38,716 nucleotides of DNA from an uncultured Atopobiaceae bacterium (lineage in GTDB: Bacteria > Actinomycetota > Coriobacteriia > Coriobacteriales > Atopobiaceae): the NCBI GenBank assembly GCA_947581665.1, contig CANPVI010000002.1, positions 1 through 38,716 on the forward strand, read 5' to 3'. Of the stretch, positions 21,678 to 23,295 are shown in pieces (positions within the stretch are counted from its first letter, which is position 1; every line of letters starts with the position of its first letter). The notes below the pieces were generated by a model. That model was not told where the DNA came from. It saw only the letters and a program-made list of their open reading frames with translations, and ran no database searches. The position numbers and the translations under genes are program-made.

Positions 21678-22048
21678 TGGTGGAGGCGCGGAGGATCGAA
21701 CTCCGGTCCAAGCCAAACCCCTGACGGTTTTCTCCAAGCTCAGTCCATGGTTCGCATTCGAGCGCCTCGGGTCCACAGACAATCCCTCGGCGCCCTAGCT
21801 GGTTCGGCCTTTGGCCACGCCATACCGGCTACGTGCGCGGCCGCATCCCCGTGAGGTGATGCCTTCGGGTTCTTAGGGGAAGGTCCCCCGAAGACAGCTG
21901 CCGTCTATCGACTAAGCAGCGAGAGCCAGTTGAGGCTCAGCAGTACGAGTGTTGTCAATTCAATTTGACGGTACCCCTGTTTCACGTGGCGAGGAGACCA
22001 CGGCTTGCTTGCCGTCTCAAATCTGACCTGTCGAAACCAGTCGCCCCC
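21678..22048 (-). ncRNA. ssrA: Transfer-messenger RNA (tmRNA)
   Basis: Minus strand begins GGGGGCGACTGGTTTCGACAGG and ends GGACCGGAGTTCGATCCTCCGCGCCTCCACCA; the 5' GGGGGCG pairs with 3' CGCCTCC; internal tag reading frame ends ...DNTRTAEPQLALAA-TAG (21912-21956). Confidence 0.97.
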
Positions 22049-22057
22049 GTTCGGGTC

Positions 22058-22150
22058 GTTGGGAGACCTCATCTGCGCGCGATTTTGCGGGCGCAACAAC
22101 CCACTGGGTTGTTGCGCCCGCAAAATCCCCCGCATCTAAGGCCCCACAAC
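22058..22150. repeat. Long hairpin H1
   Basis: Perfect 23-bp arms gattttgcgggcgcaacaaccca / tgggttgttgcgcccgcaaaatc (22081-22103, 22105-22127) with a 1-nt centre; imperfect outer extension (15 of 23 paired). Confidence 0.95.
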
Positions 22151-22169
22151 GCCCCTCACATCTCGGCTT

Positions 22170-22263
22170 GCCGGATGCGCCCCATCTAGCCACGATCTCG
22201 GCCACTCACGTAGCGTTTAGTACGCTACGTGGCCGAGATCCTGTCTATCTGGGGCACCCCGAC
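22170..22263. repeat. Long hairpin H2
   Basis: gatctcggcc-[actc]-acgtagcgt ... acgctacgt-ggccgagatc (22194-22240) with imperfect outer arms. Confidence 0.9.
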
Positions 22264-22361
22264 AAACCTCGCATATCAAGTGCTTCTGTTCTTTCGATCG
22301 TTGAAAGAGCTGGGCAATCTTACTGCAATCTTTTAAGGGTTACAGGTTCGGCCAAACATCA

Positions 22362-22468
22362 GCGAGAGGCTCTGGGGTGCCCGAGATGCGTGGGATTTTG
22401 GCCACGTAGCGTACTTCGCTACGTGAGTGGCCAAAATCGCGCGCAGATCGGGTGCACCAGAGCCTCGC
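22362..22468. repeat. Long hairpin H3, inverted relative of H2
   Basis: gattttggcc-acgtagcg-tactt-cgctacgt-[gagt]-ggccaaaatc (22394-22438) with outer arms gcgagaggctctgg.../...ccagagcctcgc. Confidence 0.92.
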
Positions 22469-22480
22469 AGCGTTAGCTCG

Positions 22481-22627
22481 TTAGCCCTCGTCGACCAGCT
22501 CGAACATGTCGGGGCCCACGCCGCACACGGGGCAGACGTAGTCATCGGGAAGCTGCGGCTCGTCGATGGTGACCTCGTAGCCACAGACGGTGCAACGGAA
22601 CGTATAGGTCTTCTTCTCGTCAGCCAT
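22481..22627 (-). CDS. Rubredoxin-like Fe(Cys)4 protein, 48 aa
   Basis: MADEKKTYTFRCTVCGYEVTIDEPQLPDDYVCPVCGVGPDMFELVDEG; two CxxC knuckles (CTVCGY, CPVCGVG). Confidence 0.9.
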   Translation of the reverse strand: MADEKKTYTFRCTVCGYEVTIDEPQLPDDYVCPVCGVGPDMFELVDEG

Positions 22628-22705
22628 GATGGCTCCTTTCATGGGCTCCACATCGAGCACGGGAAACATAGCTTAGCCGTTCCTACCCAATTTGCGCGTA
22701 ACCAT

Positions 22706-22767
22706 TTACGCCGGGAAGCCACTTCTTCGGTGCGGTACCGCACCGAAGAAGTGGCTTCCCGGCGTAA
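22706..22767. repeat. Perfect 62-bp palindrome
   Basis: ttacgccgggaagccacttcttcggtgcggt followed directly by its exact reverse complement (31 bp per arm, zero spacer). Confidence 0.98.
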
Positions 22768-22785
22768 GTTCGAGGAGGCGCCCGC

Positions 22786-23295
22786 CTAGCTCGCGACGTA
22801 GCTCGCGGCCTTCGGCGGGGTCTTGCCCTTCAGGACCTTGTGGTAGTAGCTGTAGCTCATGGGGGGCTCCTCGCCGAGGTCCTTGGTCTCGGCGACCTCG
22901 CCGATAAAGAGCATGTGGGTGCCCACGTCGATGGACTGGCTCACCGCGCAGGACACCATGCCGCAGGTGTGGAGCGTGGTGTAGGGGTCGCCGAACTCGT
23001 CGTAGTCCACCGGGATGTCGGCGAACTTGTCGAAGTCGAGCGAGGAGCGGAAGCCGAAGCGCCCGATGAAGGGCATGTCGGCCGTCTCGTCCACGATCGT
23101 GATCGCGAAGTGGCCGGCGGCGAGGATGCGCCCGCAGGTGACGTTCTCCTTGTTCACGGAGATGACCACTTGGATCGGGGTGGCGGTGACCTGCGTGGCG
23201 GTGTTGATGAGGCAGGCCGCGTAGCCCTCCTCGTTCTTGGCGGAGACGATGTAGAGGCCGTAGTGGTGCTTGAACATGACGGTGGGATCGACCAT
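22786..23295 (-). CDS. Flavin reductase-like FMN-binding protein
   Basis: MFKHHYGLYIVSAKNEEGYAACLINTATQVTATPIQVVISVNKENVT...; flavin reductase-like split barrel pattern; upstream of a rubredoxin-like gene. Confidence 0.85.
   Translation of the reverse strand: MVDPTVMFKHHYGLYIVSAKNEEGYAACLINTATQVTATPIQVVISVNKENVTCGRILAAGHFAITIVDETADMPFIGRFGFRSSLDFDKFADIPVDYDEFGDPYTTLHTCGMVSCAVSQSIDVGTHMLFIGEVAETKDLGEEPPMSYSYYHKVLKGKTPPKAASYVAS

Follow-up and report, generated by a model that had tools for sequence, protein, structure and literature searches.

Long imperfect hairpins beside ssrA in an uncultured Atopobiaceae bacterium belong to a Coriobacteriales-wide family found just after stop codons

In the window, the whole stretch of 38,716 nt analysed here from the draft genome of an uncultured Atopobiaceae bacterium, three long hairpins (H1 to H3) lie within the 432 bp that separate the 5' end of the tmRNA (22048) from the stop codon of a rubredoxin-like gene. 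This raises the question of what these hairpins are and whether they belong to ssrA. A sequence-only reading had given this distance and had described H2 and H3 as inverted copies that share an actc bulge and differ by two compensatory C-G to T-A changes, all of which was confirmed. The innermost part of H2 lies at 22200-22234 and that of H3, as its reverse complement, starts at 22400, whilst the 16-mer atctgcgcgcgatttt occurs at 22071 in H1 and as an exact inverse at 22433 in H3. The three hairpins are real, none of 200 dinucleotide shuffles folding equally well in any case (Table 1), but they had been drawn too small, as each covers ~85-125 nt when its outer imperfect stem is included. The hairpin cores extend over ~22066-22143 in H1 and ~22172-22256 in H2.

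Table 1. Features of the window at and around the three hairpins
Feature	Position	Strand	Evidence
tmRNA gene (ssrA)	21678..22048	-	ARAGORN; Rfam RF00023, 134.9 bits
H1, element copy, right-hand apical hairpin of the full-length form	22049..22170	+	R1 match 66.1 bits; fold z -9.63
H2, short-form element copy	22161..22283	+	R1 119.9 bits; R2 94.8 bits; fold z -8.02
H3, short-form element copy	22351..22470	-	R1 138.9 bits; fold z -7.15
rubredoxin-like gene, 3' end carrying H3	22481..22627	-	ORF read directly; NCBIfam rubredoxin, below cut-off

H1 abuts the 5' end of the tmRNA immediately upstream and on the opposite strand, and its apical hairpin, GCAACAACCC/GGGTTGTTGC, is the right-hand arm of a full-length form of ~205 nt that is found elsewhere in the genome. 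H2 is on the strand opposite to both the tmRNA and the rubredoxin-like gene, the NCBIfam match of which falls under the cut-off (30.7 versus 90 bits). H3 starts 10 nt after the stop codon of that gene (22481-22483, minus strand), which is the usual placement for the element, and its last nucleotides are a T-rich GTTT. Within the family, H1 and H2 are atypical in lying inverted in the tmRNA leader, and they probably owe their origin to local duplication or conversion rather than to a tmRNA function. Two further observations concern the same region. The tmRNA tag given by ARAGORN, GSCLRGTFP* (window 21912-21956, minus strand), looks wrong, and a direct reading of the tag region gives DNTRTAEPQLALAA followed by TAG, which is a canonical tag. 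A perfect palindrome at 22706-22767, just 3' of a flavin-reductase-like gene (fold z -15), represents a second, unrelated interspersed family, with ~10 places in G000 and a single one in each of G001 and G004.

The draft genome that contains the window is 1.73 Mb in 257 contigs, and blastn against it returned 46 matches over many contigs; the hairpins are therefore interspersed repeats. Every one of the six genomes of the genus gave blastn matches, as against none of the 35 genomes searched from other genera, and blastn against phages and plasmids gave no match, leaving carriage by either unsupported. Public contigs with the core motif were all from uncultured Atopobiaceae labelled Lapin, a label that we have taken as rabbit gut. 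Two forms exist, a short form of ~120 nt, to which H2 and H3 belong, and a full form with three apical hairpins, of which H1 retains only the right-hand one.

The sequence-only reading had proposed a search of this and related genomes with a model built from the hairpins, and this approach recovered many further homologs. Eighteen copies, aligned freely with MAFFT, gave a first model (R1; 121 positions), which detected the element in each of the six genomes of the genus and picked up weak copies in two additional genera of the family. A second model (R2; 119 positions; 11 rows, one of them opposite-strand) was built from the copies in those two genera and detected the element in four of the family's 35 genera and, across Coriobacteriales, in 57 of 151 genomes, representing 24 of 77 genera (E ≤ 0.001; 24 candidates scored per genome). 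These counts describe a sample of the order that includes many draft genomes, with gene calls based on a simple codon score. Copy number ranges from one or two in some genera to tens per genome in others (~32 in G170). The search tool labels the families f1, f2 and f10, and f2 and f10 may correspond to Eggerthellaceae and Coriobacteriaceae.

The earlier statement that no named family matches was upheld. No Rfam 15 family reached its gathering threshold at the window hairpins or at loci from other genera and families. A permissive Rfam search of the window hairpins gave sub-threshold matches mostly to microRNA models, none of them credible, and at the f10 loci it gave only T-box-like matches upstream of pheS (L273, 56-315; L285, 49-308; 38 versus a cut-off of 93 bits). 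Literature on palindromes in Coriobacteriia, Eggerthellaceae, Atopobiaceae and Eggerthella lenta contained nothing relevant that we could find, and the element is apparently undescribed so far. An order of gut bacteria carries, at tens of copies per genome, a structured element for which Rfam has no entry.

The covariation between H2 and H3 had been read as selection on a folded form, and the covariation was borne out, lying far above what shuffling or sliding produced, both in this genus and in the comparison of three families. The MAFFT alignment of 18 copies contains 33 pairs, 16 of them with two-sided changes. In an alignment fitted to R1 (150 matches, opposite-strand ones included) 94.4% of cells pair, compared with 77.6% after shuffling and 28-47% after sliding, bearing in mind that model-fitted alignments lean towards their structure; two-sided changes affect 26 of the 33 pairs, a count that ignores kinship and does not number independent events. 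An ATCT/ATCT internal loop of four unpaired columns is 95-99% conserved beside pairs that take up to four Watson-Crick types. Covariation was also found within loci, in 17 clusters of orthologous copies; at the H3 site, one pair varies between C-G, A-T and G-C among four species whose copies are near-identical elsewhere. Across three families (79 matches) 30 of 32 pairs show two-sided changes, 84.1% of cells pair (62.9% shuffled, 31-44% slid) and the ATCT/ATCT loop is nearly fixed.

However, selection at the level of RNA is unproven, because G-U pairs do not outnumber A-C mismatches: the 3618 cells of 112 non-overlapping forward copies from the six genomes include 3306 Watson-Crick, 48 G-T and 111 A-C. 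G-T is also the rarer in f2, but not in f10 or in other f1 genera, and outside this genus and f2 both counts are small, so that the missing G-U excess is weaker evidence there. DNA-level selection or hairpin-templated correction could contribute to the covariation. Taken to its end, the latter would make the covariation a by-product of mutation without a selected function, with template switching in the hairpin or conversion between copies rewriting both arms. The near absence of one-sided G-U intermediates, the frequent C-G/G-C flips and the whole inner blocks that differ between species at orthologous sites are what such a process would leave behind. Templated correction should nevertheless erase mismatches, and the mismatched loop columns are 94-99% conserved alongside covarying pairs; together with consistent placement after stop codons and recurrence at the same genes across families, this makes the explanation very improbable.

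In this genus, 93 of the 100 copies with a called left gene have that gene upstream on the same strand, and in 76 of these 93 the distance to its stop codon is 15 nt or less (median 6 nt). H2 and the orthologs of H1 and H2 in the tmRNA leader are among the exceptions. The cluster next to ssrA is thus real but incidental to a family that sits after stop codons genome-wide, and an ssrA-specific element was rejected, as copies follow many genes. In f10 the element lies at the stop codon or close to it, and in f2 the distance is ~40 nt and an extra hairpin (GTTCCG..CGGAAC) intervenes; this hairpin was seen upstream of the element at L257, L264, L270, L281 and other f2 loci.

Particular positions recur across genera or families, namely pheS|pheT, gyrB|gyrA, purH and agmatine deiminase, and those at pheS and purH recur in another family. 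Low-copy genera have their copy at the pheS stop codon, before pheT (seven genomes, three genera), and the pheS position recurs in f10 genomes. The identities of PheS, GyrB, GyrA and agmatine deiminase come from NCBIfam, and PurH, InfC, PheT, ArgJ and ArgB are what we take the remaining proteins to be from their sequences. GyrA at L154 and L248 was observed to have an acidic N-terminal extension of ~80 residues.

Could the copies simply be intrinsic transcription terminators of unusual length? A T-rich tail follows the stem in this genus, at a fixed place on the element strand (47% of copies versus 4.5% on the opposite side), copies lie after stop codons, and the right-hand neighbour may be on either strand, about as many facing the element as following it, all of which a terminator would explain. 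However, the tail is weak, at three to four T, a terminator scan of 22000-22800 found none, and f2 copies have no T-tract. Furthermore, copies lie inside operons, at infC|rpmI, pheS|pheT, gyrB|gyrA and argJ|argB, and the element therefore need not stop transcription; the infC|rpmI copy, common to several species, is without the T-rich tail in G000 and G003. A pure terminator was rejected as the general role, and we regard terminators of this kind as an improbable account of the family.

Comparison of orthologous sites revealed turnover within the genus. The H2 site holds a copy in G000, G003 and G004. In G001 and G005 it has no copy, and what is left is the outer stem, accompanied by a single GCACC-like repeat rather than two. 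At the H1 site G000 and G001 have a copy and G003 and G005 do not, and H3 orthologs follow rubredoxin in G001, G004 and G005. Several sites filled in one species are empty in G005, or hold a differently sequenced or full-length copy. These comparisons fit insertion and deletion alike, and the two cannot be told apart.

Such turnover, in an interspersed element with tens of copies per genome, is expected of a non-autonomous mobile palindrome, REP- or MITE-like, that would spread via single-stranded DNA at replication forks, its post-stop sites being merely tolerated and its fold kept for a transposase that needs a DNA hairpin. Covariation restricted to Watson-Crick pairs without a G-U preference fits this explanation, as does the orientation by replichore in three complete genomes described below. 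On the other hand, the pheS and purH positions recur across families, phages and plasmids carry no match, and there is no clear target-site duplication, the apparent GCACC repeats being part of every copy. With regard to MITE features, the inverted ends are imperfect and a non-exhaustive search found no parent element. The PF01797 transposase is absent from four of the six genomes of the genus and is flanked by a different repeat in the other two, leaving a RAYT unsupported as mobiliser in this genus. Overall, a mobile palindrome appears unlikely. The loci in question, L039 and L040, encode a Y1 transposase (RAYT-like) flanked by GCAAGACAGTGGGGACGG..., and a similar repeat was seen in G005, which has no PF01797 match. 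A longer repeat with inverted ends (GGGGACTATR...CATAGTCCCC) was also noted near several element sites, at L147 and in stretches of G005.

In three complete f2 genomes (G170:C1, G176:C1 and G191:C1) the strands of the copies split into two arcs, in 32/32, 33/35 and 25/25 cases (90/92 in total), a split never reached in 2000 strand shuffles per genome. In G170, GC skew is positive along the plus arc and mostly negative along the other. By comparison, 191 of 277 sampled G170 genes (69%), from a caller seeded with known genes, point as the copies do. The excess over genes is suggestive, yet it is not decisive, because expression-matched genes might be more biased. It could indicate a DNA-level mark for replication or segregation that must point with replication. 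However, copies number no more than tens per genome, and in some genera just one or two; they point in mixed directions in G205 and within contigs of G005, where GC skew is too weak to judge replication direction; the element is tied to stop codons; and highly expressed operons may exceed the average leading-strand bias, which could account for the excess. We consider a replication mark the least probable of the explanations discussed here. The near-perfect replichore orientation in f2 is a separate puzzle concerning how these repeats spread or act.

Taken together, H1 to H3 belong to an order-wide family of long imperfect hairpins with a common fold that covaries, a consistent orientation to the upstream gene and recurrence at orthologous genes. 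We give about an even chance to the reading that these hairpins, just after stop codons, between cistrons and at transcript 3' ends, act on mRNA as REP elements do. A role of this kind at 3' ends or in termination is favoured because copies are placed after stop codons, in sense orientation and also inside operons, and because in E. coli ribosomes stall at REPs that lie no more than 15 nt from a stop codon, and mRNA half-life is affected by REPs (PMC12306157). A rigid hairpin near the terminating ribosome would block 3'-to-5' exonucleases, and this block would set and stabilize the 3' end of the upstream cistron; a hairpin within ~15 nt of the stop codon may also slow translation termination. 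In this genus the T-rich tail may allow some copies to end transcription as well, and the conservation of the internal loops hints that a protein or nuclease recognizes them. Against this REP-like role, RNA-level selection should favour G-U, sites are gained or lost between species, and the strict orientation in f2 is not predicted by a purely RNA role; the missing G-U excess leaves room for DNA-level explanations. More tentatively, and with a lower probability, the family may be an ancient Coriobacteriales cis-acting element whose internal loops are read by a dedicated trans-acting partner and which controls translation termination or mRNA 3' ends at selected genes, with a near-exclusive replication direction in some families.

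Among known systems, the Collinsella-1 RNA motif (RF01700; PMC2864571) is a candidate structured RNA of human-gut Actinobacteria, but its model has no match at the element loci at gathering or permissive thresholds. Of 250 palindromic candidate structured RNAs from human microbiomes (PMC8040213), most are predicted terminators and some possibly REP, and the main text of that study names none in Actinobacteria. Intrinsic (Rho-independent) terminators share with the element a stable hairpin at gene 3' ends and, in some copies of this genus, a T-rich tail; the element is, however, far longer and repeated, its loops are conserved, and it occurs inside operons and, in f2, without a T-tract. REPs measure 20-40 bp (PMC3733652), whereas the element, at ~120-205 nt, has conserved internal loops; unlike REPs, it has no linked RAYT in four of the six genomes of the genus, does not flank the Y1 transposase in the other two, and keeps its positions at the same genes across families. 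Nevertheless, the element resembles the REP and BIME sequences of E. coli and other bacteria in being an extragenic palindrome interspersed in many copies, which lie mainly 3' of genes and frequently between cistrons or directly after a stop codon, and it provides a concrete test case for stop-codon-adjacent hairpins outside E. coli.
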